Origin: Aromatoleum toluolicum
GTDB taxonomy: Bacteria > Pseudomonadota > Gammaproteobacteria > Burkholderiales > Rhodocyclaceae
Length of the DNA: 41,681 nucleotides
NCBI RefSeq assembly: GCF_012911005.2
Contig: NZ_WTVS01000052.1
Location: 1 to 41,681 of the forward strand
Reading direction: 5' to 3'
Shown here: positions 20,763-41,681 of the stretch, one piece after another
Position numbering within the stretch: position 1 is the stretch's first letter
Layout of the letters: each line of letters opens with the position of its first letter
Program-made: the position numbers and the translations under genes
The notes under the pieces: generated by a model
What the model was told of the DNA's origin: nothing
Database searches by the model: none
Seen by the model: the letters and a program-made list of their open reading frames with translations, nothing else

Positions 20763-22181
20763 ATGTCCTTCTCTCGAGGTCCGGCGCGCTCGGCATTCAT
20801 CGACCACAACCGCCCGAGAAACCTGAGGATGAGCACTAAGCGGATCGTCGTGCTAGGCGCCGGCCCGGCCGGAGTCGCGGTTGCCATCGGCTTGAGGCGT
20901 GCGGGGGAGGAGGTGCTGCTGGTCGGCGAGCCGCGACGCTTTGCCGCGGTGGAGGGGGTGTCCGCGCGGGTGCTGGGCGCCCTGCACAAGGCCGGCTTCG
21001 CCCGGGCCGTCCGGTGCTTCGCTCCGCCATCGCAGCGCTGCGTGACGTGGGACGGTACGCGGTCGCGTGCCAATTGGGAGAGTCTCGTTGACCGCCAGGC
21101 CTTCGACCGGGCTGCGCTCGAGGACGCCCGTAGCGCGGGTGTGCGCGTGGTGGCCGACCGGATCGTGTCCTGCGTGTCCGCCGTGAGCGGGCATTACGTG
21201 GAGGTCGATCACGACGGCAGGCGGACGACCTTCGAAGCGGATTTCGTCGTCGAGGCGCGGGGTCGTGCCGCACCGGGGCAAGGGAGCGCGCGTGTGCGCG
21301 GTGCGGAGACGGTGTCCCTGCTGCAGTACTGGGTCGGTCCGCCCGCGACCGCCGGTTCGGCGGTGGAGAGCTGTGCCGACGGCTGGGTGTGGATGGCCGC
21401 GCTGCCGGACGGGCGGCGTTATCTCCAGCTGACGCTGGACGTCGCGACTGCGGCGCTGCCGCCGAAGCGGGAACTCGGCGCCTTCTGCCGTGCCCGCTTC
21501 GAGGCGATCGACGCAGCGCGTCCTTTCCTGGAGGGCGCCGAGCCGGTCGGCGAACCGCATGCGCGGACGAGCACGCCCGTACTGCAGGAAGATGTTGTCG
21601 GGCACGACTGGATCCGCGTCGGCGATGCGGCGATGGCGGTCGATCCCTTGTCCGGGAACGGGATCTTCCAGGCGCTTTCCTCGGCCTTGCAGGCCCCGGC
21701 CGTGATCGGCACCCTGCTGCACGATCCCGACCGTGCAGCGCTGGCGCGGCGTTTCCATCAGGAGCGGATCGAAAACCTGTTCTTCCATTTCGCGCGCATC
21801 GGCCGCGATTTCTACGCAATGGAGTCGCGTTGGCAGGACGAGCCGTTCTGGCGCACGCGCCGCGCTTGGCCCGATGCGCAGCCGATCCATCCCGACACTT
21901 CCGCCGCCGACTTGCAGGTGATGCGCCGGCCCGTCGTATCTGACGGCCGGATTGTCGAGGACGAAGTGGTCGTCACGCCCGGCCAGCCTCTCGGCATCTG
22001 GCATGTCGATGGCGTGAGGCTGGCGCCGCTGGTGCGGGCCTTGCACGCGTGCGGGTCGCAGACGAGCGCCGAGGCGGTGTTGCGCGCCGCACTCGGCGGT
22101 GATGCCACGCGTGCAGCGCGGGTGGCGGCGTGGTTGCGGGAGCAGGGCTGGCTGGCGGGGGAGCCCCAAGAGCTTCCGTAG
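20763..22181 (+). CDS. FAD-dependent oxidoreductase, tryptophan-halogenase-like, with PqqD-like C-terminal domain
   Basis: The N-terminal FAD-binding motif is KRIVVLGAGPAGVAVAIGLR; a GD-type motif follows (RVGDAAMAVDPLSGNGIFQA) and a DGWVWMAALPDG segment recalls the WxWxIP motif of flavin-dependent halogenases and LodB/QhpG-type monooxygenases. The last ~70 residues (LAPLVRALHACGSQTSAE, then VAAWLREQGWL) look like a PqqD-type peptide-binding winged helix. ATG at 20763 gives 472 residues and has AGGAG five bases upstream; ATG at 20829 (450 residues) places the FAD motif closer to the N-terminus as in most relatives but lacks a well-spaced ribosome site. The substrate is unknown. The gene stands alone after the efflux operon (about 200 bp with no gene), and its stop codon is part of a REP-like element. 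Confidence 0.78.
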   Translation: MSFSRGPARSAFIDHNRPRNLRMSTKRIVVLGAGPAGVAVAIGLRRAGEEVLLVGEPRRFAAVEGVSARVLGALHKAGFARAVRCFAPPSQRCVTWDGTRSRANWESLVDRQAFDRAALEDARSAGVRVVADRIVSCVSAVSGHYVEVDHDGRRTTFEADFVVEARGRAAPGQGSARVRGAETVSLLQYWVGPPATAGSAVESCADGWVWMAALPDGRRYLQLTLDVATAALPPKRELGAFCRARFEAIDAARPFLEGAEPVGEPHARTSTPVLQEDVVGHDWIRVGDAAMAVDPLSGNGIFQALSSALQAPAVIGTLLHDPDRAALARRFHQERIENLFFHFARIGRDFYAMESRWQDEPFWRTRRAWPDAQPIHPDTSAADLQVMRRPVVSDGRIVEDEVVVTPGQPLGIWHVDGVRLAPLVRALHACGSQTSAEAVLRAALGGDATRAARVAAWLREQGWLAGEPQELP

Positions 22182-22208
22182 GGCGGGAGCAGCGCAGCGT
22201 ATCCTGCC
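22178..22208 (+). repeat. REP-like element, copy 1 (31 nt)
   Basis: It begins GTAGGGCGGGAGCAGCGCAG and ends in TCCTGCC, which folds back on GGCGGGA with one mismatch. A GTAG tetranucleotide at the foot of a hairpin is the hallmark recognised by REP-associated tyrosine transposases. The GTAG overlaps the TAG stop of the flavoprotein gene. It pairs in inverted orientation with copy 2, as in a BIME. Confidence 0.65.
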
Positions 22209-22242
22209 ACGCGACGGTCCGGTCGATTCCGGTGGCCGGATT

Positions 22243-22273
22243 GGCGGGGCGCACTGCGTTCCTCCCGCCCTAC
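22243..22273 (-). repeat. REP-like element, copy 2 (31 nt, inverted)
   Basis: Read on the minus strand it begins GTAGGGCGGGAGGAACGCAG and ends GCCCCGCC, closely matching copy 1 in its first half and with the same total length. The two copies are 34 bp apart and in opposite orientation. Both lie in the 275-bp gap between the flavoprotein and RTX genes, which holds no CDS. Confidence 0.65.
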
Positions 22274-22317
22274 CCGAATTCGTGCATTTGTCCTCGGCCT
22301 ATCGAAAATGAGTTTGG

Positions 22318-22353
22318 ATACAACAGCATGCCGTGGCATGCTGTTGTATTTTT
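22318..22353. terminator. 15-bp perfect palindrome with T tail upstream of the RTX gene
   Basis: ATACAACAGCATGCC (22318-22332) and GGCATGCTGTTGTAT (22335-22349) are perfectly complementary around a 2-nt loop, followed by four T residues on the plus strand. It is 137 bp past the flavoprotein stop and 104 bp before the RTX start. A rho-independent terminator is the simplest reading; the near-perfect symmetry also allows a cruciform or a protein-binding site. Confidence 0.6.
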
Positions 22354-22456
22354 CACATTGCCGCCTGTCTGACACTTTTGCGCAGGCGGAGTCGTTCGCT
22401 GCGGCCGCGTGCCGACCGGCAAGAGATCGCGTTCCCTCCATTTCCGAGTATTCAAT

Positions 22457-25400
22457 ATGCTTGATAGCCTGATCTTTATCGACAGCTTCAATAACCGAAT
22501 CGTTACCGCGCCGTCGATCGATCCGAACCAGTTGGTGTTGTACCGCGATCCCTATTCCAACCAGTACACCATTCGGCTGCTGGGTATCGACGACGAGCTG
22601 CGCTTCGCCCCGGGCACGATCCAGGAGATCCAGTTCGGCGACGGCACGGTGTGGGATCAGTTCGCCATCGACCAGGCGGTGTGGCAGACGCAGCTGCAGC
22701 AAGGCACGTCGGGCAACGACTGGCTGTGGGGCACGGAAGGGCAGGACGTGCTGCTGGGCGGCGCGGGCGATGACCAACTGGTGGGCAACGGCGGCAACGA
22801 CGTGCTCGACGGCGGAACGGGCAACGACAAACTCGATGGTGGCGCTGGCGCGGACACCTATGTGCTCGCCGCCGGCGGCGGCTCCGACACCGTCATGGAC
22901 GGGGGCGCCTACTGGATGGAACAGAACCGCATCGTCACCGCCCCGACCATCGACCCGGGCCAGGTGATGCTGGTGCGCGAACCCGGCGGCTACGACCAGT
23001 ACGGCCAGTGGACCGGCGACCAGTACGTGCTGCGCCTGCTGGGTTCGCACGACGAGCTGCGCTTCAACCCCGGCACGATCCAGGAGATCCAGTTCGGCGA
23101 CGGCACGGTGTGGGACCAGTTCGCCATCGACCAGGCGGTGTGGCAGACGCAGCTGCAGCAAGGCACGTCGGGCAACGACTGGCTGTGGGGTACGGAAGGC
23201 CAGGACGTGCTGCTGGGCGGCGCGGGCGATGACCAACTGGTGGGCAATGGCGGCGACGACGTGCTCGATGGCGGCACCGGCAACGACAAACTCGATGGTG
23301 GCGCCGGCGCTGACACCTATGTGCTCGCCGCCGGCGGCGGCTCCGACACCGTCGTCGACACCTACGCCTACTGGATGGAACAGAACCGCATCGTCACCGC
23401 CCCGACCATCGACCCGGGCCAGGTGATGCTGGTGCGCGAACCCGGCGGCTACGACCAGTACGGCCAGTGGACGGGCGACCAGTACGTGCTGCGCCTGCTG
23501 GGTTCGCACGACGAGCTGCGCTTCAACCCCGGCACGATCCAGGAGATCCAGTTCGGCGACGGCACGGTGTGGGACCAGTTCGCAATCGACCAGGCAGTGT
23601 GGCAGACGCAGCTGCAGCAAGGCACGTCGGGCAACGACTGGCTGGGGGGCACGGAAGGGCAGGACGTGCTGTTGGGCGGCGCGGGCGACGACCAGCTGCA
23701 GGGCAACGGCGGCAACGACGTGCTCGACGGTGGAACGGGCAACGACAAGTTGGACGGCGGCGCCGGCTCGGACACCTACGTGCTCGCCGCCGGCGGAGGC
23801 TCCGACACCGTCGTCGACTCCTACTGGATGGAGCAGAACCGCATCGTCACCGCCCCAACCGTCGACCCGAGCAAAGTGATGCTGGTGCGCGAACCCGGCG
23901 GCTACGACCAATACGGCCAGTGGACGGGCGACCAGTACGTGCTGCGCCTGCTGGGTTCGCACGACGAGCTGCGCTTCAACCCCGGCACGATCCAGGAGAT
24001 CCAGTTCGGCGACGGCACGGTGTGGGACCAGTTCGCCATGGACCAGGCAGTGTGGCAGACACAGCTGCAACAGGGCACCTCCGGCAACGACTGGCTGGGG
24101 GGCACGGAAGGGCAGGACGTGCTGCTGGGCGGCGCGGGCGACGACCAGCTGCTGGGCAACGGCGGCAATGACGTGCTCGACGGTGGAACGGGCAACGACC
24201 ACCTCGACGGCGGCGCCGGTTCGGACACCTACGTGCTCGCCGCGGGCGGCGGCTCCGACACCGTCGTCGACACCTACGCCTACTGGATGGAACAGAACCG
24301 CATCGTCACCGCCCCGACCGTCGACCCGAGCAAAGTGATGCTCGTGCGCGAACCCGGCGGCTACGACCAATACGGCCAGTGGACGGGCGACCAGTACGTG
24401 CTGCGCCTGCTCGGTTCGCACGACGAGCTGCGCTTCAACCCCGGCACGATCCAGGAGATCCAGTTCGGTGACGGCACGGTGTGGAACCAGTTCGCCATCG
24501 ATCAGGCGGTGTGGCAGACGCAGCTGCAGCAAGGCAGCGCCGACAACGACTGGCTGTGGGGCACGGAAGGTCAGGACGTGCTGCTGGGCGGCGCGGGCGA
24601 CGACCAGCTGCTGGGCAACGGCGGCAATGACGTGCTCGACGGTGGAACGGGCAACGACCACCTCGACGGCGGCGCCGGCTCGGACACCTACGTGCTCGCC
24701 GCGGGCGGCGACTCCGACACCATCGTCGACACCTACGCCTACTGGATGGAGCAGAACCGCATCGTCACCGCCCCGACCGTCGACCCGAGCAAAGTGATGC
24801 TGGTGCGCGAACCCGGCGGCTACGACCAGTACGGCCAGTGGACGGGCGACCAGTACGTGCTGCGCCTGCTCGGGTCGCACGACGAACTGCGCTTCTACCC
24901 GGGCACGATCCAGGAGATCCAGTTCGGCGACGGCACGGTGTGGGACCAGTTCGCCATCGACCAGGCGGTGTGGCAAACGCAGCTGCAGCAAGGCAGCTCC
25001 GGCAACGACTGGCTGGGGGGCACGGAAGGGCAGGACGTGCTGCTGGGCGGCGCGGGCGACGACCAGCTGCTGGGCAACGGCGGCAATGACGTGCTCGACG
25101 GTGGAACGGGCAACGACAAGTTGGACGGCGGCGCCGGTTCGGACACCTACGTGCTCGCCGCGGGCGGCGGCTCCGACACCGTCGTCGACACCTACGCCTA
25201 CTGGATGGAACAGAACCGCATCGTCACCGCCCCGACCGTCGACCCGAGCAAAGTGATGCTCGTGCGCGAACCCGGCGGCTACGACCAATACGGCCAGTGG
25301 ACGGGCGACCAGTACGTGCTGCGCCTGCTCGGTTCGCACGACGAGCTGCGCTTCAACCCCGGCACGATCCAGGAGATCCAGTTCGGTGACGGCACGGTGT

Positions 25401-28312
25401 GGAACCAGTTCGCCATCGATCAGGCGGTGTGGCAGACGCAGCTGCAGCAAGGCAGCGCCGACAGCGACTGGCTGTGGGGCACGGAAGGTCAGGACGTGCT
25501 GCTGGGCGGCGCGGGCGACGACCAGCTGCTGGGCAACGGCGGCAATGACGTGCTCGACGGTGGAACGGGCAACGACCACCTCGACGGCGGCGCCGGTTCG
25601 GACACCTACGTGCTCGCCGCGGGCGGCGGCTCCGACACCATCGTCGACACCTACGCCTACTGGATGGAGCAGAACCGCATCGTCACCGCCCCGACCGTCG
25701 ACCCGAGCAAAGTGATCCTGGTGCGCGAACCGGGCGGCTACGACCAGTACGGCCAGTGGACGGGTGACCAGTACGTGCTGCGCCTGCTCGGCTCGCATGA
25801 CGAGCTGCGCTTCGCCCCGGGCACGATCCAGGAGATCCAGTTCGGCGACGGCACGGTGTGGGACCAGTTCGCCATCGACCAGGCGGTGTGGCAGACGCAG
25901 CTGCAGCAAGGCACGTCCGGCAACGACTGGCTGTGGGGTACGGAAGGGCAGGACGTGCTGCTGGGCGGCGCAGGCGATGACGAGCTGCAGGGCAGCGGCG
26001 GCAACGACGTGCTCGACGGCGGCGCCGGCAACGACAAACTCGATGGTGGCGCCGGCGCGGACACCTACGTGCTCGCCGCCGGCGGTGGCGCTGACACCAT
26101 TGTCGATGCGTATGCCTCCTGGATGGAACAGAACCGCATCGTCACCGCACCGGACGTCGATCCCGATCAGGTCACGCTGCTGTATCGTCCCGGCTCCTAT
26201 GATCCGTACATGGGCGGGGCGCAGCCCGAGCAGTATGTCCTGCGCATCGTCGGCTCGACCGACGAGCTGCGTTTTGCGCCCGGTGCGATCCAGGAAATCC
26301 AGTTCGGTGACGGTACGGTGTGGAACGCACAAATGATCTCGATGATGGCCGTGACGGACGTCAATGATCCGCCCAACGGAGAGGTCACGATCAGCGGGGC
26401 GCCGGTGCAGGGCGAAACGCTCGTTGCATCCAATACCCTGACGGATGCGGACGGTATGAGCGAGGTCCACTATCAGTGGCATGCCGACGGTGTCGCGATC
26501 GACGGTGCGATCGAAGATACCTACACCCTGTCGCAGGGTGATGTGGGCAAGACCATCACCGTCACCGCCTCCTACATGGATGGCTTCGGAACGCAGGTGA
26601 GCGTGGTCGGCTTCGCGATGGCGCCTGTCGCGAACCTCAACGATCTGCCGAGCGGTGAGGTGCTGGTAATGGGCGAGCCGGTGCAGGGGCAGACCCTGAC
26701 CGCAATCCACAACCTCGCAGACGCCGACGGACTGGGCGCACTCGGCTACCAGTGGAGTGTGGACGGCGCGGCGGTCGCAGGTGCCAACGAGAGCAGCTAC
26801 ACCCTCAAGCAGGGTGACGTGGGCAAGAGCGTTGCGGTCACCGTGAGTTATGTGGATGGCTTCGGCGCTGCGGAAAGCGTCGCAAGCGCGCCGACGGTTC
26901 CGGTCGAGAACATCAACGACCTGCCCACCGGAGAGGTCACGATCGATGGAGTCGTCATGCAGGGCCAGATCCTCACGGCGACCAGCAGCTTGGCCGATGA
27001 AGACGGAATCGGGCTGCTCCGCTACCAGTGGAGCGTCGATGGTGCCGCAATCTCCGGCGCGACGGAAAGCAGCTACATGCTTGCCGCAAGTGACGTCGGC
27101 AGGAGCATCTCCGTCACGGCCAGCTATGTCGACGGCTTCGGTACGACGGAAAGCGTCAATAGTCTCGCCACGGCCCCGGTGCTGCCCATCCCGAATCTCA
27201 CCCTGACCGGTGCCGGCGGCAACGATACGCTCTACGGCGATGGCGGTCACGACAGCCTCACCGGCCTTGGCGGGAGCGACACGCTGTACGGGCTCGACGG
27301 CAACGACATGCTGGATGGCGGAGCGGGAACGGACAACCTGCTGGGCGGGGAGGGCTCCGACCTGTATGTGATCAACCTCGCGTCGGATCACCTTGCGGCG
27401 GAGATCTCCGACACCGGCATGACGGGTACGGACGAAGTCCGCTTCGCGTCGGCATCCGCGAGCACATTGAAGCTCTACGCGTCCGACACCGGCGTCGAGA
27501 AGATCGTCGCGGGCACCGGCAGCGGAGCCACAGCAAACACCTCGGGTACGACGGCACTGAATGTCGATGCCTCGGCGGTGCTGAACGGCCTGACGCTGAT
27601 CGGCAATGCGGGTGCGAACACCCTGACCGGTACCGCCTACAGCGACACGCTCGACGGGGGCGCAGGTGGCGACAGGTTGACCGGCGGATACGGCGACGAC
27701 ACCTACGTCGTGGACAACATCAAGGATGTCGTCTCCGAGGGCAGCGTTTCGGGCGGCTCGGACACGGTGGTGTCGAGCATCGCCTACACCCTGGGCACAA
27801 ACGTCGAAAATCTCGTGCTGACGGGACAGTCCGGGCTGAGCGGAACGGGCAACTCGCTGGCGAACCGCCTGTCGGGCAGCGACGGTGCGGATACGCTGAA
27901 GGGGCTTGCAGGAAACGACGTCCTCCTGGGCGGTGCCGGGAACGACGTGCTGATCGGCGGTCTGGGCATGGACGAGCTGACAGGGGGGGCGGGCGCGGAC
28001 GTCTTCCGCTTCGAAAGCACCCTGGGCTCGACCAACATCGACACGATCACGGACTTCGACGGCACGAGCGACACGATCCAGCTGGAAAACCTGGTGTTCA
28101 AGAAGCTCGCGGCGACCGGCAGCCTCGCAGCTGCGAACTTCGTCGCCAGCGCCACGGGCGAGGCCGCCGATGCCAACGACTACGTGCTTTACAACACGAG
28201 CACGGGCGGCCTGTACTACGATGCGGACGGCAATGGAGCGGGCGCGGCCGTTCAGGTGGTGACGCTGACCGGCGCCCCGACCCTTGGCGCCGGGGACTTC
28301 ATCGTTACGTGA
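22457..28312 (+). CDS. Giant RTX-type calcium-binding repeat protein with Ig-like domains, probable type I secretion substrate
   Basis: A 1951-residue acidic protein. Residues 13-~1295 are nine tandem units (eight full, one partial), each with a haemolysin-type-related segment (ELRFNPGTIQEIQFGDGTVW) followed by about five RTX nonapeptides (GGAGDDQL, GNGGNDVL, GGTGNDKL type). Residues ~1303-1578 are three 92-residue Ig/cadherin-like repeats (QGETLVA, DADG, YQW, YTL, DVGK, DGFGT). The C-terminal ~370 residues hold further RTX blocks and end in the hydrophobic GDFIVT tail expected of a type I secretion signal. There is no N-terminal signal peptide, consistent with that route. No enzymatic domain is seen; adhesin or surface-layer roles are possible. 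ATG at 22457 has a poor ribosome site; GTG at 22409 is the alternative. No ABC exporter is nearby. Confidence 0.88.
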   Translation: MLDSLIFIDSFNNRIVTAPSIDPNQLVLYRDPYSNQYTIRLLGIDDELRFAPGTIQEIQFGDGTVWDQFAIDQAVWQTQLQQGTSGNDWLWGTEGQDVLLGGAGDDQLVGNGGNDVLDGGTGNDKLDGGAGADTYVLAAGGGSDTVMDGGAYWMEQNRIVTAPTIDPGQVMLVREPGGYDQYGQWTGDQYVLRLLGSHDELRFNPGTIQEIQFGDGTVWDQFAIDQAVWQTQLQQGTSGNDWLWGTEGQDVLLGGAGDDQLVGNGGDDVLDGGTGNDKLDGGAGADTYVLAAGGGSDTVVDTYAYWMEQNRIVTAPTIDPGQVMLVREPGGYDQYGQWTGDQYVLRLLGSHDELRFNPGTIQEIQFGDGTVWDQFAIDQAVWQTQLQQGTSGNDWLGGTEGQDVLLGGAGDDQLQGNGGNDVLDGGTGNDKLDGGAGSDTYVLAAGGGSDTVVDSYWMEQNRIVTAPTVDPSKVMLVREPGGYDQYGQWTGDQYVLRLLGSHDELRFNPGTIQEIQFGDGTVWDQFAMDQAVWQTQLQQGTSGNDWLGGTEGQDVLLGGAGDDQLLGNGGNDVLDGGTGNDHLDGGAGSDTYVLAAGGGSDTVVDTYAYWMEQNRIVTAPTVDPSKVMLVREPGGYDQYGQWTGDQYVLRLLGSHDELRFNPGTIQEIQFGDGTVWNQFAIDQAVWQTQLQQGSADNDWLWGTEGQDVLLGGAGDDQLLGNGGNDVLDGGTGNDHLDGGAGSDTYVLAAGGDSDTIVDTYAYWMEQNRIVTAPTVDPSKVMLVREPGGYDQYGQWTGDQYVLRLLGSHDELRFYPGTIQEIQFGDGTVWDQFAIDQAVWQTQLQQGSSGNDWLGGTEGQDVLLGGAGDDQLLGNGGNDVLDGGTGNDKLDGGAGSDTYVLAAGGGSDTVVDTYAYWMEQNRIVTAPTVDPSKVMLVREPGGYDQYGQWTGDQYVLRLLGSHDELRFNPGTIQEIQFGDGTVWNQFAIDQAVWQTQLQQGSADSDWLWGTEGQDVLLGGAGDDQLLGNGGNDVLDGGTGNDHLDGGAGSDTYVLAAGGGSDTIVDTYAYWMEQNRIVTAPTVDPSKVILVREPGGYDQYGQWTGDQYVLRLLGSHDELRFAPGTIQEIQFGDGTVWDQFAIDQAVWQTQLQQGTSGNDWLWGTEGQDVLLGGAGDDELQGSGGNDVLDGGAGNDKLDGGAGADTYVLAAGGGADTIVDAYASWMEQNRIVTAPDVDPDQVTLLYRPGSYDPYMGGAQPEQYVLRIVGSTDELRFAPGAIQEIQFGDGTVWNAQMISMMAVTDVNDPPNGEVTISGAPVQGETLVASNTLTDADGMSEVHYQWHADGVAIDGAIEDTYTLSQGDVGKTITVTASYMDGFGTQVSVVGFAMAPVANLNDLPSGEVLVMGEPVQGQTLTAIHNLADADGLGALGYQWSVDGAAVAGANESSYTLKQGDVGKSVAVTVSYVDGFGAAESVASAPTVPVENINDLPTGEVTIDGVVMQGQILTATSSLADEDGIGLLRYQWSVDGAAISGATESSYMLAASDVGRSISVTASYVDGFGTTESVNSLATAPVLPIPNLTLTGAGGNDTLYGDGGHDSLTGLGGSDTLYGLDGNDMLDGGAGTDNLLGGEGSDLYVINLASDHLAAEISDTGMTGTDEVRFASASASTLKLYASDTGVEKIVAGTGSGATANTSGTTALNVDASAVLNGLTLIGNAGANTLTGTAYSDTLDGGAGGDRLTGGYGDDTYVVDNIKDVVSEGSVSGGSDTVVSSIAYTLGTNVENLVLTGQSGLSGTGNSLANRLSGSDGADTLKGLAGNDVLLGGAGNDVLIGGLGMDELTGGAGADVFRFESTLGSTNIDTITDFDGTSDTIQLENLVFKKLAATGSLAAANFVASATGEAADANDYVLYNTSTGGLYYDADGNGAGAAVQVVTLTGAPTLGAGDFIVT
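22493..26340 (+). repeat. Nine tandem ~459-bp coding repeats in the RTX gene
   Basis: Anchoring on the AAC codon of NRIVTAP, units start at 22493, 22925, 23384, 23837, 24296, 24755, 25214, 25673 and 26132. Spacings are 432, 459, 453, 459, 459, 459, 459 and 459 bp, so the frame is always kept. The last unit stops after its GDGTVW segment. Units beginning at 24296 and 25214 differ at only three bases by eye, including shared rare synonymous choices, while the intervening units differ more. That pattern points to duplication of a two-unit, 918-bp block. Confidence 0.92.
26363..27190 (+). repeat. Three tandem 276-bp Ig-like repeats in the RTX gene
   Basis: Units start at 26363, 26639 and 26915 (the Asn codon of NDxP), giving an exact 276-bp (92-residue) period. 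Each has GEV, QGxxLTA, LADADG, YQWSVDG, SSYTL, DVGK and SYVDGFG. The copies are clearly diverged, unlike the 459-bp units, so they are older. Confidence 0.9.
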
Positions 28313-28372: not shown

Positions 28373-28525
28373 TTCCATGCGGTCAGAGCTCCTGCAACGC
28401 GGTGGCGATGGCGCTACTTGCAAGCCACCCGGATGGTTGTTCCGCCCGAGTGGCTGCGGTTCAAACTCCCGGCGTCGACACGGTGATTACAAAATGGTCG
28501 GCGCTCACGGGACGCGATGATTGTC

Positions 28526-28747
28526 TCAAGGTACCGAGACCCAGCCCTCAAGCGCCTGATGGGCCGCCTCGTCCAGCGTCTTGGGACCGAAAGGATCGCC
28601 GTAGTTGCGATCCTGTCGGTCCTCCAACATCTGGCCGAGCATGCCGAGTCGGTTGGAATAGTCCCATATGCCGCCGCGCACGGCGCTCATGGCCTTGACG
28701 TCGAGCGTCTCGATGGCGGGCAGGTTGTGGATGATGAGATGGGTCAT
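28526..28747 (-). CDS. Small peptide with a double-glycine-type leader (possible bacteriocin/RiPP-like precursor)
   Basis: A 73-residue product. The first ~26 residues, MTHLIIHNLPAIETLD then KAMSAVRGG, look like a GG leader: hydrophobic and acidic positions followed by V-R-G-G at residues 23-26, the type cut by C39 peptidase-containing ABC exporters. The remaining ~47 residues (IWDYSNRLGMLGQMLEDRQD onwards) are hydrophilic, with no Cys and no Gly-rich helix, so it is not a typical class II bacteriocin core. ATG at 28747 has AGGAG seven bases upstream, a strong site. It follows the phosphatase gene on the same strand after 284 bp. No exporter, immunity or modification gene is next to it; the flavoprotein with a PqqD-like tail is 6.3 kb away. 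Confidence 0.7.
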   Translation of the reverse strand: MTHLIIHNLPAIETLDVKAMSAVRGGIWDYSNRLGMLGQMLEDRQDRNYGDPFGPKTLDEAAHQALEGWVSVP

Positions 28748-28817
28748 GATGGCTCTCCTGAGGCGTGTATCGCGTTTCTGCTGGTAGTGAGCTGGATGTT
28801 GCGCTCGCCACTCTTAT

Positions 28818-28833
28818 TGCAGAAAGCGCGCCA
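28818..28833 (-). promoter_or_regulatory. Candidate sigma-54 (-24/-12) promoter of the GG-leader peptide
   Basis: On the minus strand TGGCGCG, four bases, then CTGCA matches the sigma-54 consensus TGGCACG-N4-TTGCW in spacing and in the key GG and GC pairs, with two mismatches. It would start transcription near 28808, about 60 bases before the ATG. An A+T-rich block (28873-28892) lies just upstream and could be a factor-binding or UP-like region. No enhancer-binding protein is in the window. The 28748-29031 gap has no CDS. Confidence 0.35.
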
Positions 28834-29031
28834 GGGGCGCCATAAGCATCTTGAAAGAAGCGTAAGGGCCTGAAAATAAAAATAATGTGAAGGCGCATCG
28901 CTTGCGGCGAAGGCGATGTGGGTACCATTGGCGGACGCCAAGCGGTGGGCAATCCCCGACAGGTTCAGGTCAAGTGTTGGGTCTGTCACGTCACGGTTGG
29001 GCAGCCGACGCCGCATAAGGCAGGGGAGGGG

Positions 29032-30603
29032 CTAACGGGTGTCCCCTCGTGTGCTCGCGCGCGTCGGGCGCGTGGCGTCGATATCCCGGGCGGGTGGGCG
29101 CGCTCCCGGCGTGCGCAGCCGCGCGGCCGGAAACTCCTCCTGCCACAGGCGCGTGCCCGCGGCGTTCCACGCGGCGATGCGCAGCAACCGCGCGCCGGCC
29201 GGCCCGGAGAACTCCAGCGTGCAGAAGTTGCGCTGCGTGACCAGCGTCCCGGGCACCTCGCGCACCGGGAACGGGCGGGGATGCACGCGCGAGGTCAGCG
29301 GCGAGCAGGTCAGCTCGGTTAGCGGGTAGGTGCCGGGGCGCTCGCGCTCGGTCAGGTGGGTGTAGTGGATGTCGCCGGAGAGGAAGAACACGCCGTCGAT
29401 GCGCTCCGCAGCGAGCCAGTCGAGGAACGCGTGGCGCTCGCGCGGGAAGTTGTGCCAGCCCTCGCCGCCGCGCTGCTCGGGCGAGGGGCGGTCGCTGAGC
29501 ATGCGGCTGCCGTTGGCGACCAGCTTGAAGGTGGCGCGCGAGTCGCGCAGCGCGCCCTTGAGCCACTCGAGCTGCACCGCGCCCAACATCGTCCGCGTCG
29601 GGTCCGCGGCGGCATCGTCGTCGCGGTGGTAACGGTCATCGAGCAGGAACAGCTCGACGTCGCCGAGCGGCACCCGGGCGAAGGTCCCGCCGCCGTTGGG
29701 CAGTCCGTAGCTGGGGTTCGCCCAGTAGTCCTGGAACAGCTCTAGCGCCGTCGCCTTGAGCGCGAAGTCGCGGTTCGAGTTGTCCGGGCCGTAGTCGTGG
29801 TCGTCCCAGATGGCGACGTGCTGGCCGGTGCGCAGCAGCCGCTGCAGCGGCGCGAAGGCGCGCGTGATCGCCCAGCGCCGGTGCATCCGCGCGGCGGCCT
29901 CGTCCGCGGGCGCGAGGTCGTCGTCGCGGTAGTAGATGCTGTCGCCGAGCCACAGCATGACGTCGGGTCGCCGTGCGGCGATGGTATCGAAGATCTCGAA
30001 GCCGGCGCCGAAGGAGCCCTGCGTGACCGCGTAAGGGGGGTCGGGGACGTAGTTGCACGAGCCGGTGGCGATGACCAGCTCGCGAGGCGCGGTCGGATCC
30101 GCGGGCGCGGTGGTGAACGCGGGCACCTCGCCGTGCTCGACCGGGGTTCCGTCGAGCAGCACGCGGTAGGCGTAGCGGGTGGCGGCCTGCAGACCGTCGA
30201 GGTCGACGCGCGCGGTGTGGCCGCGCTCCGGGCTGACGGCGACCGGCGCGCTGCGCCGCGCCGCGTCGGGCTGCCCGTGCGGCCAGTACTCGAGCTGCAC
30301 CTGCGCGGGGGCGTCGGTCATCAGCCACACGCCGACGCGCGCGGCCGTCGCCGGGCCGGCCATCGGGCCGCCGGCCAGGGTGGCCGCGCTGGCGCCGGCC
30401 GCGTTCAGCGCCAGCAGCAGCCAGGGTAGCGCCAGGAGGCGCAGTACGCGCCACCCAGGCGTGGAACGGCGAACGTCCCGAACGACATTGCGCAACAGGC
30501 CGATATGGCGGATCAGCAGGTCATTGTCCCCGCGCTGCAGGGCATTGACCGTGAAAAACAACCAGGTGCCGCCGGGATGCCAGGCGCGTCGATAGTCGGG
30601 CAT
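29032..30603 (-). CDS. PhoD-like alkaline phosphatase/phosphodiesterase fused to a RAYT N-terminal fragment
   Basis: As read from ATG 30603 the protein has 523 residues. Residues ~53-73 (VLRLLALPWLLLALNAAGAS) are a signal-peptide-like hydrophobic segment; the mature part has an N-terminal beta domain and then a calcineurin-like PhoD domain with GSCNY, WLGDSIYYRDDD, IWDDHDYGPDNS, LLDDRYHRDDD and FLSGDIHYTHL metal-ligand motifs. Residues 1-~46 (MPDYRRAWHPGGTW, then NDLLIRHIGLLRNVVRDVRR) are instead the start of a REP-associated tyrosine transposase. No ATG, GTG or TTG start is evident near the hydrophobic segment, so the transposase fragment seems to supply the start codon. The signal would then be internal and may act as a membrane anchor, or export may be impaired. 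Twin arginines (RRSTPGW) precede the hydrophobic stretch but do not fit a good Tat motif. Confidence 0.8.
   Translation of the reverse strand: MPDYRRAWHPGGTWLFFTVNALQRGDNDLLIRHIGLLRNVVRDVRRSTPGWRVLRLLALPWLLLALNAAGASAATLAGGPMAGPATAARVGVWLMTDAPAQVQLEYWPHGQPDAARRSAPVAVSPERGHTARVDLDGLQAATRYAYRVLLDGTPVEHGEVPAFTTAPADPTAPRELVIATGSCNYVPDPPYAVTQGSFGAGFEIFDTIAARRPDVMLWLGDSIYYRDDDLAPADEAAARMHRRWAITRAFAPLQRLLRTGQHVAIWDDHDYGPDNSNRDFALKATALELFQDYWANPSYGLPNGGGTFARVPLGDVELFLLDDRYHRDDDAAADPTRTMLGAVQLEWLKGALRDSRATFKLVANGSRMLSDRPSPEQRGGEGWHNFPRERHAFLDWLAAERIDGVFFLSGDIHYTHLTERERPGTYPLTELTCSPLTSRVHPRPFPVREVPGTLVTQRNFCTLEFSGPAGARLLRIAAWNAAGTRLWQEEFPAARLRTPGARPPARDIDATRPTRASTRGDTR
30460..30603 (-). mobile_element. 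5' remnant of a REP-associated tyrosine transposase (RAYT, IS200/Y1-like)
   Basis: The first ~46 codons encode MPDYRRAWHPGGTW, FFTVN and a LLIRHIGLLRNVVRDVRR segment, which is the conserved start of RAYT proteins. The expected continuation with the HUH motif (xDAWVVLPDHxHxIW) and the catalytic tyrosine is missing: the frame passes directly into the phosphatase signal segment near 30455. The remnant cannot be active. A REP-like element lies 29 bp upstream in the same orientation, the usual arrangement for these genes. Confidence 0.75.
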
Positions 30604-30631
30604 GCCATCATGTTGCGCGGAACGCCATGGC

Positions 30632-30662
30632 GGCGCAATGCCCTTCGGTTCCTGCACCCTAC
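30632..30662 (-). repeat. REP-like element, copy 3, upstream of the RAYT remnant
   Basis: On the minus strand it begins GTAGGGTGCAGGAACCGAAG and ends CATTGCGCC, and is 31 nt long like copies 1 and 2. GGTGCA/GGCGCAAT-type arms pair imperfectly. Its head GTAGGG and its place just before the RAYT start support a REP relationship. The rest of the 30604-30852 gap holds no recognisable gene. Confidence 0.55.
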
Positions 30663-30852
30663 GGGATTGCCGTCGCGGCCGATCACAAAGCGCCACCGAA
30701 GTCGCGTATTTTCGAGTGGCTGAGTTGGGACGAGAATGGCCGATTGCGGCAAGGTGATCTGCAGTTCGCTGTCACGCGTCAGGCAAGCTTTTCACCGGTA
30801 CTGCGCGTAAGCTCGCGCAGCGCGGTGCATTCACAGGTTCGCCTTTAACGCC

Positions 30853-31359
30853 ATGACTACAATGATCCGGCCCGAGACAGCATTGGACGAGGAGGCAATC
30901 GAGCAAGTCACTCGACGGGCTTTTCTCTCTCATCCTTACAGCCATCAAACCGAGCAGTTCATCATCCGCGCCCTGCGGGCGGATCACGCACTGTCGGTAT
31001 CTCTGGTCGCCGAAGAGGCCGGCCGCGTCGTGGGGCACATTGCGCTGTCGCCAGTAAGTGTCAGTGATGGTGCTGCCGGCTGGTATGGACTTGGGCCGAT
31101 TTCGGTCGAGCCGGAGCGGCAAGGCCGTGGTATCGGGCGGGCGCTGATGGAAAGGGGGCTTGCCGAGCTCCGCAGGATCGGCGCGAACGGGTGTGTGCTC
31201 GTCGGTGATTCGGCGTTCTACACTCGTTTCGGGTTTGCGAGCAATCCGGCGCTCGTGCTTGAGGGCGTTCCGCCCGAGTACTTTCTTGCGCTGTCTTTGG
31301 GCACTGCTTCCGCTCTTGGCAATGTCCGGTTCCATCCGGCATTTCAGGCCACGAGCTGA
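30853..31359 (+). CDS. GNAT-family N-acetyltransferase (YhbS-like)
   Basis: A 168-residue protein with the GNAT acetyl-CoA fold: the substrate strand VVGHIALSPV, then LGPISVEPERQGRGIGRALM, which holds the pyrophosphate-binding Q/RxxGxG/A motif (RQGRGIG), then VLVGDSAFYTRFGF typical of the YhbS branch. Targets of this branch are not well defined. The start is either ATG 30853 or ATG 30862; neither has a clear ribosome site. Its stop codon is immediately followed by a scrap of an unrelated enolase-superfamily gene, so the 3' side is a rearrangement junction. Confidence 0.88.
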   Translation: MTTMIRPETALDEEAIEQVTRRAFLSHPYSHQTEQFIIRALRADHALSVSLVAEEAGRVVGHIALSPVSVSDGAAGWYGLGPISVEPERQGRGIGRALMERGLAELRRIGANGCVLVGDSAFYTRFGFASNPALVLEGVPPEYFLALSLGTASALGNVRFHPAFQATS

Positions 31360-32726: not shown

Positions 32727-34298
32727 ATGTTTCACACGCAATCACGCTCAACAAGATCGGCAGTCCTGCGAGCGGCGGCCCTCGGCTTGACGGTACTGGC
32801 AACCGGCTTGTGGTCCGGCGCGATATACGCACAGACGCCGATCAGCGACGTGAGCTCGAACCCGGACGGCGGCGATGCGACCGATCCGCTCGCGGTGACG
32901 CAATGCAACGGCGCGCCGCAACTGGGTGTCCTCTATCGCAATAGCGAGAGCGAGCCGCACCTCGCGGTCAACCCGCTCGACCCGGCGAACATGATCGCCG
33001 GGTGGCACCAGGACCGCTGGAGCTCCGGCGGCGCGCAGAGCCTGGGGGCGGCGTACACGACCGACGGCGGCGTGTCATGGACGCAGGTGGTGATCCCGTT
33101 CACGCGCTGTTCCGGGGCGGCGCCGCGCTCTGCGGGCGATTACGAGCGCGGCTCGGATCCGTGGATCAGCTTCGGCCCGACCGGCACGGCGCATTACATG
33201 GCGCTGGTCACCGACAGGTCGGTCAACGCGAACGCGATGGTCACCGCGCGTTCGACCGACGGCGGTAACACCTGGTCGGCACCAGTGGCGATCGCACGCA
33301 TGCCCGCACAGGATCCCGTCTTGCGTTCGCTGTTTCACGACAAGAACACCCTCACCGCCGACCCGTTCGACGAGCGGCTCGTCTATGCGACCTGGACCTT
33401 GTTCCGCACCGGGATCACGTCGCTCGTGTTCGCGCGCTCAACGGACGGCGGACTGACGTGGTCCAAGCCGGCGCCGATCGCGACGATGGGCGGGGGAGTC
33501 GGGAGTTCCGAGAAGACCGTATTCCGCCAAGGCGCGCAGATCGTCGTGCTTCCTGACGGAACGCTGGTTAACGCGTTCTTCCGCATACTGTTCGATGACG
33601 CCACTGGGCGCGTAACCAACGAGCAGGCGATCCTGCGCTCGACCGACAAGGGGCGGCACTGGACGCGCCTGGACACGCGGGTCGCGCCGTTCGAGAGCGC
33701 GTCGGCGGTCGATCCCGAGCTTGGTATTCCGGTGCGCGACGCGGGCGGATTGCCGAGCATCGCGGTCAATCCCGGTACCGGCGAAATCTATATCGCGTGG
33801 CAGGACCGCAACGCCAATAGCGCGGGGCTCGTGGGCGCCTTCGTCGCGCGCTCCAACGATGGCGGCCTGACGTGGTCGGCGCCGGTGCGCGTCAATCAGG
33901 GCACGACGGATGATGCCCAGGCGTTCCTGCCGATCGTCGCGGTCAGTGCGGACAGCACCGTGGGCGTGCTCTTCTACGATTTCCGCAACGACGTGTCCGG
34001 CGATGCGCCGTTGAGCACCGACGTGTTCCTGTCGCTGTTCTCGCATGAACTGGTCTTCATCGACGAGCGCCGGCTGACGGCCAGCTCATTCGACATGCGT
34101 CAGATGGCGATCACCGGCCCGCGCGGCTTCTTCCCCGGCGACTACGTCGGGCTCGCCAGCGCCGGCGGTGATTTCGTCGCGGCATTCACGAGGAGCAACA
34201 ACCTCGGTCTGCCGGTGGTATTCCCGCAAAACGAGAACGGCTTGTTCCTCGACACCCACAACCGCCAGGACATCGTGTTCGTGCGCGAGACGCCGTAA
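32727..34298 (+). CDS. Secreted Asp-box (BNR-repeat) beta-propeller protein
   Basis: A 523-residue exported protein. A Sec signal peptide (RAAALGLTVLATGLWSGAIY, cleavage near AYA-Q35) is followed by a six-bladed-propeller-type domain with five Asp-boxes: TTDGGVSW, STDGGNTW, STDGGLTW, STDKGRHW and SNDGGLTW. Such propellers occur in sialidases, but the sialidase FRIP-type arginine motif is not seen, so a glycosidase role is not supported. It could be a carbohydrate- or protein-binding exoprotein. ATG at 32727 has AAGGAG seven bases upstream, and a good promoter precedes it. It stands as a single-gene unit with a hairpin after it. Confidence 0.83.
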   Translation: MFHTQSRSTRSAVLRAAALGLTVLATGLWSGAIYAQTPISDVSSNPDGGDATDPLAVTQCNGAPQLGVLYRNSESEPHLAVNPLDPANMIAGWHQDRWSSGGAQSLGAAYTTDGGVSWTQVVIPFTRCSGAAPRSAGDYERGSDPWISFGPTGTAHYMALVTDRSVNANAMVTARSTDGGNTWSAPVAIARMPAQDPVLRSLFHDKNTLTADPFDERLVYATWTLFRTGITSLVFARSTDGGLTWSKPAPIATMGGGVGSSEKTVFRQGAQIVVLPDGTLVNAFFRILFDDATGRVTNEQAILRSTDKGRHWTRLDTRVAPFESASAVDPELGIPVRDAGGLPSIAVNPGTGEIYIAWQDRNANSAGLVGAFVARSNDGGLTWSAPVRVNQGTTDDAQAFLPIVAVSADSTVGVLFYDFRNDVSGDAPLSTDVFLSLFSHELVFIDERRLTASSFDMRQMAITGPRGFFPGDYVGLASAGGDFVAAFTRSNNLGLPVVFPQNENGLFLDTHNRQDIVFVRETP

Positions 34299-41392: not shown

Positions 41393-41425
41393 CTCGCCGA
41401 CCTGCAGTTTTATCGTGTGACAGTA

Positions 41426-41455
41426 TTGACTAAGGTCAGGAGGAAATTGTATCGT
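41426..41455 (+). promoter_or_regulatory. Sigma-70-like promoter upstream of rseC
   Basis: TTGACT (41426-41431) and TATCGT (41450-41455) are separated by 18 bp, in a locally A+T-rich stretch (41395-41485) after the ttdB hairpin. It would drive rseC, whose ATG is 30 bp further on. The AGGAGG inside the spacer has no start codon at a suitable distance. Confidence 0.5.
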
Positions 41456-41484
41456 TTCACAAACAAACTGTTTGATATCAACCA

Positions 41485-41681
41485 ATGAGCCAAGGCTATC
41501 GCTCTCCCGCAGAAAACGACGACCGGGGACTTCGACTTATCGAAGCCGAGGCGCGTGTGGTCGCCATCGAAGGGCAGGTCGCCTGGCTTCAGCCCGAGCA
41601 CCGCAGCGGCTGCGGCGCGTGTGCAGCGGCCTCGCTGTGCGGGGCCGCGACGCTTGCGCGCGCGGCGGGGGGCGGCAGGGC
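41485..41681 (+). CDS. rseC: RseC/MucC family protein (SoxR reduction-associated), partial at window end
   Basis: The first 65 residues are present. After a short lead, EARVVAIEGQVAWLQPEHRS and the cysteine cluster C43, C46, C52 (SGCGACAAASLCG) match the cytoplasmic start of RseC. RseC is an inner-membrane protein found with the RpoE system and with the Rsx/Rnf complex that keeps SoxR reduced. The ribosome site before ATG 41485 is weak. Membrane segments would lie beyond the window. Confidence 0.8.
   Translation, partial: MSQGYRSPAENDDRGLRLIEAEARVVAIEGQVAWLQPEHRSGCGACAAASLCGAATLARAAGGGR

Follow-up and report, generated by a model that had tools for sequence, protein, structure and literature searches.

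We found that a phosphatase gene of Aromatoleum toluolicum appears to start within the remains of a transposase gene. The window, meaning the whole 41,681-nt contig NZ_WTVS01000052.1 that was analysed, contains on its minus strand an open frame from an ATG at 30603-30601 to a stop codon at 29034-29032. It encodes 523 amino acids with no internal stop, and comprises 554 codons if read from an upstream GTG at 30696. In this frame, codons 1-46 of a REP-associated tyrosine transposase (RAYT; 30603-30466) are joined in the same frame to a PhoD-like phosphatase, so that the frame runs unbroken from one into the other, as the first-pass annotation had described. Comparison with related loci reveals two deletions behind the present gene. 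It is quite likely that its start lies in RAYT-derived DNA, most probably at the TTG at 30495-30493 (MRNVVRDVRRSTPGWRVLRLLALPWLLLALNAAGASA), and that the RAYT-derived residues belong to an ordinary, cleaved signal peptide.

Since the genome of the window (G000) is a draft in 289 contigs, the join might be an assembly error, or the likeness to RAYT might be due to chance. However, the same join is present over residues 1-522, with 95% identity and an unbroken frame, in G001, a single-contig genome of 5.26 Mb; therefore it is not an assembly error. In addition, when two RAYTs were used as tblastn queries, 11 of 14 genus loci proved to have a relic ahead of the phosphatase and co-oriented with it. 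The probability that the join is artefactual or accidental is negligible.

Residues 3-48 alone matched the NCBIfam family NF047646 (REP_Tyr_transpos) with an E-value of 2.3e-5 and 24.3 bits against a family cut-off of 80, the match covering only profile positions 1-45 of 146. Together with the tblastn relics, this supports the earlier assignment of about 46 codons to the start of a RAYT. Residues 1-57 are 86% identical to a RAYT frame on contig C82 of Azoarcus sp. Aa7 (G003:C82), and RAYT-only matches in other genera are 47-77% identical to the RAYT part of the window. RAYT transposases are marked by the Y1_Tnp domain (PF01797) with its HUH motif and catalytic tyrosine. Residues 1-49 gave no Pfam match and Y1_Tnp was not found there; codons 1-46 contain no H.H motif, and the later catalytic parts are missing. 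The element is a RAYT remnant, not a RAYT, and probably has no enzymatic role. G000 has four matches to the NF047646 profile, none of them above the cut-off; the best (70.2 bits, at C2) is another transposase.

A REP element, consisting of a GTAG foot and the hairpin GGTGCAG...TTGCGCC (fold -12.8 kcal/mol), still precedes the remnant at 30662-30632, as had been noted before. GTAG followed by a 7-bp stem agrees with the GTAG-foot palindrome of REPs, but the high copy number of REPs is lacking. The 19-mer has one exact site in G000, that of the window, and three more at 2-3 mismatches; the 17-mer core, with up to one mismatch, has 12 sites in 17 genomes, six of them at this RAYT or phosphatase. 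A related REP precedes the RAYT in Azoarcus sp. Aa7, in A. buckelii U120 (G006) and in A. diolicum 22Lin (G013). An inverted REP 3' of the RAYT is clearest in G004, and its core occurs in A. toluclasticum (G005), G009 and one A. evansii KB740 (G002) copy, G002b; between the RAYT part and the phosphatase of the window there is none. PMC2817692 describes RAYT genes as always flanked by two inverted REPs; with its 5' REP in place, the remnant of the window may fit this arrangement.

The phosphatase body (30384-29107) is composed of a DUF7800/PhoD_N-like domain and a PhoD catalytic domain (PF09423, PF25077, PF16655). In a Pfam profile search PF09423 (PhoD) scored 95.8 bits against a cut-off of 27; the NCBIfam PhoD equivalog scored 35 bits against a cut-off of 1000, and the solved relatives 9uya and 2yeq are distant (E-values 2.5e-11 and 1.3e-7). 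The strings GDSIYY, DDHD, NGSRM and SGDIHYTH, which we take to be metal-binding motifs, are all present in 11 of 13 genus copies including those of the window and G001, GDSIYY as written being missing in G002a and G015. The native signal peptide core (LRLLALPWLLLALNAAGASA; 30444-30385) is conserved among relatives, and by sequence the segment has a hydrophobic core and an ASA end. The protein is probably an ordinary though distant PhoD relative and a candidate Sec-exported enzyme, presumably active. Its 3' end has been altered as well: in the 3'-end alignment the native stop codon position (29106-29104) reads GGA instead of TGA in G000 and G001, which adds 24 C-terminal residues encoded by former 3' untranslated DNA (29103-29032) that holds the present stop.

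How the join was made can be read from A. buckelii, in which a decayed full-length RAYT is followed by the native phosphatase start (ATGCATGCCGCCAGG...). Aligned to this locus, the window has two deletions, and the native phosphatase ATG is gone, as the first-pass annotation had supposed. At junction 1, RAYT codon 46 is joined at TTCGCCG/TTCGACG to the RAYT C-terminal region, outside the RAYT's own frame; the resulting fragment of RAYT C-terminal coding DNA occupies 30473-30446, and its left edge is this junction. At junction 2 (30454-30447), the RAYT C-terminal region is joined to the phosphatase at the microhomology GTGGCGCG, which occurs at the RAYT end and again in the region of the native phosphatase start. 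In G016 both the RAYT side and the phosphatase side carry GTGGCGCG; in G004 it is present on the phosphatase side. G002a and G228, the latter from another genus, are joined at the position of junction 2 too; because this position is shared, junction 2 probably predates junction 1.

The following course of events is quite likely. A REP-flanked RAYT would once have stood immediately ahead of the gene of a Sec-exported PhoD-like phosphatase, both being read in one direction. The RAYT would have died and then been eroded by deletions at short repeats. A deletion at GTGGCGCG would have brought the RAYT C-terminal region to a point just before the hydrophobic signal core, with loss of the native ATG, and a second deletion, within the RAYT, would have set its first 46 codons in the reading frame of the phosphatase. 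Translation of the phosphatase would now have to start inside RAYT-derived DNA, most likely at the TTG at 30495-30493. The positively charged n-region would be made of 10 in-frame RAYT codons plus about seven codons' worth of RAYT sequence in another frame, and would be cut off as part of an ordinary signal peptide.

Which start codon is used may be judged from the distance to the hydrophobic core. The first-pass annotation held that no alternative ATG, GTG or TTG is evident at the natural phosphatase start. This is right for codons 38-80 only, as no such codon occurs from codon 38 to the ATG at 30363, the next one after TTG 30495; it overlooked the in-frame TTG codons at 30495-30493 and 30561-30559, both also TTG in G001. 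The upstream candidates are TTG 30495, TTG 30561, ATG 30603, GTG 30657 and GTG 30696. Any reading with an intact signal peptide and translation from ATG, GTG or TTG seems to place the start in RAYT-derived DNA. TTG 30495 leaves 19 residues before the core (25 in G001) and TTG 30561 leaves 41, whereas ATG 30603, the original RAYT start chosen in the first-pass annotation, leaves 55 (60 in G001). In 11 other copies, the n-regions from the starts tested are 10-28 residues long, apart from one of 38 in G004. Because its signal peptide length is as in the relatives, TTG 30495 is preferred over the RAYT ATG, and we consider it somewhat better than an even chance that translation begins there.

Translation from ATG 30603, with 46 RAYT residues before the signal core, is rather unlikely; it would mean that the long n-region is tolerated, or that the enzyme is membrane-anchored or slowly exported. 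This ATG is present in both G000 and G001, and the only indel between them within codons 1-46 is of 3 nt and leaves the frame open in both, as an ATG start needs. ATG is also the stronger start codon of the two, and the mRNA folds slightly less tightly around it (-9.8 in both genomes, the loosest among the RAYT-derived ATG and TTG starts, vs -11.4 at TTG 30495, or -13.6 in G001). Against these points stand, besides the n-region of 55-60 residues, the absence of Shine-Dalgarno pairing at the ATG (0 vs -1.7 kcal/mol with a spacing of 3 at TTG 30495), which gives no support to the earlier claim that the remnant supplies a ribosome site, and the four nonsynonymous and zero synonymous changes in codons 1-36 between G000 and G001. 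In G000, TTG 30561 pairs best among the RAYT starts (-5.0), but in G001 it reaches only -1.7, and no RAYT-derived start has a good Shine-Dalgarno sequence in both genomes. The remaining probability is divided among the other starts. A RAYT-supplied promoter, also put forward earlier, was dropped because a scan for the sigma-70 consensus, the only promoter type searched, found no match in 30400-30950.

It is also conceivable that the gene is becoming a pseudogene and is either untranslated or yields only a leaderless protein from ATG 30363. The native ATG and the native stop are both lost in G000 and G001, the G008 copy is broken and 3 of 17 genus genomes have no copy. Moreover, where G000 and G001 agree but differ from A. 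diolicum, 13 nonsynonymous and 8 synonymous codon differences were counted, a high ratio that would fit a period of relaxed or changed selection. However, no frameshift or stop has arisen across 523 codons in two genomes, and the four motif strings are intact in both. Between G000 and G001, the mature part (codons 77-523) has 22 nonsynonymous and 22 synonymous changes (dN/dS 0.355), and the 419 native phosphatase codons give a dN/dS of 0.27; both lie inside the range of the other 77 phosphatase pairs (0.17-0.64). Decay into a pseudogene is improbable. The enzyme body looks constrained. Codons 1-46, with five nonsynonymous changes, one synonymous change and the 3-nt indel (dN/dS about 1.8), show no constraint in these few data; the contrast with the mature part is not significant (Fisher p 0.20, six changes only). 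A claim about selection on the RAYT part was dropped, since six changes are too few. Domestication of the transposase segment, suggested in the first-pass annotation, is not borne out, because no constraint on codons 1-46, no promoter and no good Shine-Dalgarno sequence were found. It is more likely that a TTG and an n-region were captured.

Of 17 genus genomes, 14 match the query. Among 395 family genomes, with up to three candidates scored per genome, 44 have a match, and a match from residue 1 through the phosphatase end is listed for two, G000 and G001. Unfused relatives carrying the same 46 residues, which had been proposed as a refuting case, were not seen in these 395 genomes. G015 matches residues 18-506 in one frame, because a RAYT-like scrap (VNALQCRGNDLR) lies in frame before its native ATG. 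At this locus (G015:C59, L044) the scrap is accompanied by a short REP-like stretch upstream of the native ATG; tblastn missed the scrap, and it is outside the relic count. Among the matches listed, that of G014 begins at residue 35 and that of G016 at residue 40. Three RAYT matches (G206, G271, G065) extend in the alignment to query residues 109-115; the other listed family matches are phosphatases from about residue 35-66 or further in, or RAYT N-termini on separate frames. By tblastn, a relic was found at none of five outgroup MAG loci and at one of six further family phosphatase loci (G228, E-value 1.9e-11), weak hits in G087 and G249 (E-values 0.03-0.07) being set aside. At the G228 locus (L152, G228:C1:3818500-3825500), in a single-contig genome, the relic is out of frame and meets the phosphatase at the position of junction 2. 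In the same genus, G087 and G267 have in common another phosphatase locus without a convincing RAYT hit, the weak ones in G087 having E-values of 0.03-0.06. Among the papers listed in literature searches on RAYTs, Aromatoleum and signal-peptide n-regions, no report of a RAYT-phosphatase case was found.

Related bacteria appear to begin the same gene within other pieces of the RAYT remnant. The start LRPGLAWRALRRLALP is found in A. buckelii and A. diolicum, with near-copies in a Thauera MAG (VSGLAWRALRRLALP; L063) and in G087 (LRPGFAWRALCRLALP); since it nearly recurs in loci without a convincing RAYT hit, it is regarded as the native start. The alignment of orthologous loci, recommended earlier as a way to find the unfused start, located the native ATG in A. 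buckelii, A. diolicum and G015, that is, in 3 of the 13 genus copies with a complete 5' region. One copy (G004) has CTG instead, and in nine the ATG was lost by deletion or replacement. According to the alignment, 8 of the 13 copies have their closest start codon upstream within REP/RAYT-derived DNA. It is supplied by the in-frame RAYT N-terminus in G000 and G001, by RAYT C-terminal DNA in another frame in G002a and G007, by the RAYT tail in G016 (Shine-Dalgarno -7.7 kcal/mol), by the inverted 3' REP in A. toluclasticum and G009, and by the tail/REP edge in G002b, which was placed by its likeness to A. toluclasticum. G014 retains a native TTG, which leaves its start ambiguous. Where copies were aligned, the deletions or 3' break points fall short of the conserved hydrophobic core. 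The idea that each species is an independent capture was dropped, since G000/G001, G002a and G228 have in common a join at the position of junction 2 and the gene tree has little resolution (5 of 15 inner branches starred).

The gene and its relic have also changed place. When stretches of 8-15 kb were compared by blastn, used in place of a translated comparison that was too noisy, homology between most species was limited to the RAYT relic and the phosphatase. The exceptions are G000/G001, an upstream block common to G001 and A. diolicum, G002b/A. toluclasticum, common 3' flanks in G004 and G008, and a few non-collinear hits. The G014 copy lies between two convergent genes whose flanks are 35-36 bp apart in G000, A. 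toluclasticum, G009, G011 and A. diolicum; these are empty sites in five genomes. The empty-site search took in G014, G007, G009, G016, G015 and G002a and left out G004, G005, G006 and G013, and among the loci tried an empty site was demonstrated for G014 only. At the G007, G009 and G016 loci no simple empty site was found, the flanks being apart in other genomes, as at break points. Window positions 28422-30842 have no counterpart in G016 between the RTX-like gene and the GNAT gene, where 91 bp separate the last matched base from the GNAT match; this interval exceeds the block length, and about 570 bp peculiar to G016 adjoin the site. When five genomes were compared pairwise, the phosphatase had a lower dS than a neighbouring ligase gene in 9 of 10 pairs (among them G000-G013 with 0.043 vs 0.319 and G000-G014 with 0.128 vs 0.996), the order being reversed in G005-G009 (0.324 vs 0.090); for G000-G016, the phosphatase dS was 0.067 and that of the GNAT gene 0.359. 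The right-flank gene of G014 was left out of this comparison as too divergent (dN 0.63-0.67 from the others). The low dS of the phosphatase relative to its neighbours indicates horizontal movement of a phosphatase-RAYT block, which in the window would extend approximately over 30827-29022 and contain the phosphatase, the RAYT remnant and the REP; the GNAT match with G003:C43 begins at 30828, and positions 28493-29021 are found at another place in A. diolicum.

Several observations were made around these loci. Next to the block, a small minus-strand frame at 28526-28747 has a leader ending in GG (MTHLIIHNLPAIETLDVKAMSAVRGG), which in our view resembles a bacteriocin-type leader; its region (28493-29021) adjoins in A. 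diolicum the start of the gene found at 32727-34298 of the window. Further on, the repetitive RTX-like gene (22409-28312, plus strand) overlaps an opposite-strand frame of 1859 codons (21812-27391), which is probably a by-product of the repeat codon pattern. In G009 (G009:C1:4545277-4547341), the upstream flank of the phosphatase matches window positions 41409-41639, about 11 kb from the window phosphatase, and the flank on the other side, downstream, matches places some 11 kb away from the phosphatases of A. toluclasticum and G002b, as if two phosphatase loci had recombined. In Azoarcus sp. Aa7, a RAYT occurs at two contig ends and a phosphatase at two (C82 end, C67 start, C34 start and C3 end; L049, L144, L047 and L050), as if the genome had the block twice, once with its RAYT almost intact.

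A bolder proposal is that a REP-RAYT picked up the secreted phosphatase and spread with it as a cassette within Aromatoleum and into one related genus or more, and that the RAYT died repeatedly, its remains (in frame, out of frame, tail or REP) becoming start codon and n-region. We hold this to be possible, at somewhat less than even chances. Against a simple RAYT-driven cassette, the 3' ends of homology vary between copies, a search of 650 bp beyond the 3' end of the phosphatase in each of 13 copies revealed no REP, the inverted 3' REP of G004 sits between RAYT and phosphatase, and the G007, G009 and G016 loci resemble rearrangement break points rather than insertions. Compared with an IS200/IS605-like mobile unit, empty sites are present (G014), but fixed ends and an intact transposase are not: no RAYT beside an assembled phosphatase exceeds the NF047646 cut-off, and the one at G003:C82, which passes it, lies at a contig end. 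If the proposal is true, RAYTs can carry cargo horizontally and a decaying transposase is a recurrent source of N-termini. Movement of the phosphatase by the RAYT would be at odds with the view of RAYTs as single-copy, vertically inherited genes, given in PMC8049555. Whatever the agent of movement, the block differs from the RAYTs described there in having moved with the phosphatase.

In conclusion, these copies form a natural series in which one gene has received several new starts, apparently all from one dying mobile element. The series suggests that very different sequences can, in nature, take the place of a signal-peptide n-region, and it makes start-codon turnover beside a transposase relic directly testable. 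Like a RAYT with flanking REPs, the window keeps the RAYT N-terminal motif and an upstream REP with GTAG foot and hairpin, and the relative G004 also has an inverted REP downstream of its RAYT; unlike RAYT systems, only 46 N-terminal codons are left here, the HUH and tyrosine parts are gone and the REP core is nearly single-copy. With PhoD-like alkaline phosphatases (PF09423) the protein shares the PhoD and PhoD_N-like domains and a Sec-like signal core, whereas its N-terminus comes from a transposase relic and its C-terminus was extended by stop loss. Other genes are known in which mobile-element sequence has taken over the 5' end, the relic giving the start codon and first residues. The same appears to hold here, with the difference that several junctions use different parts and frames of one relic.
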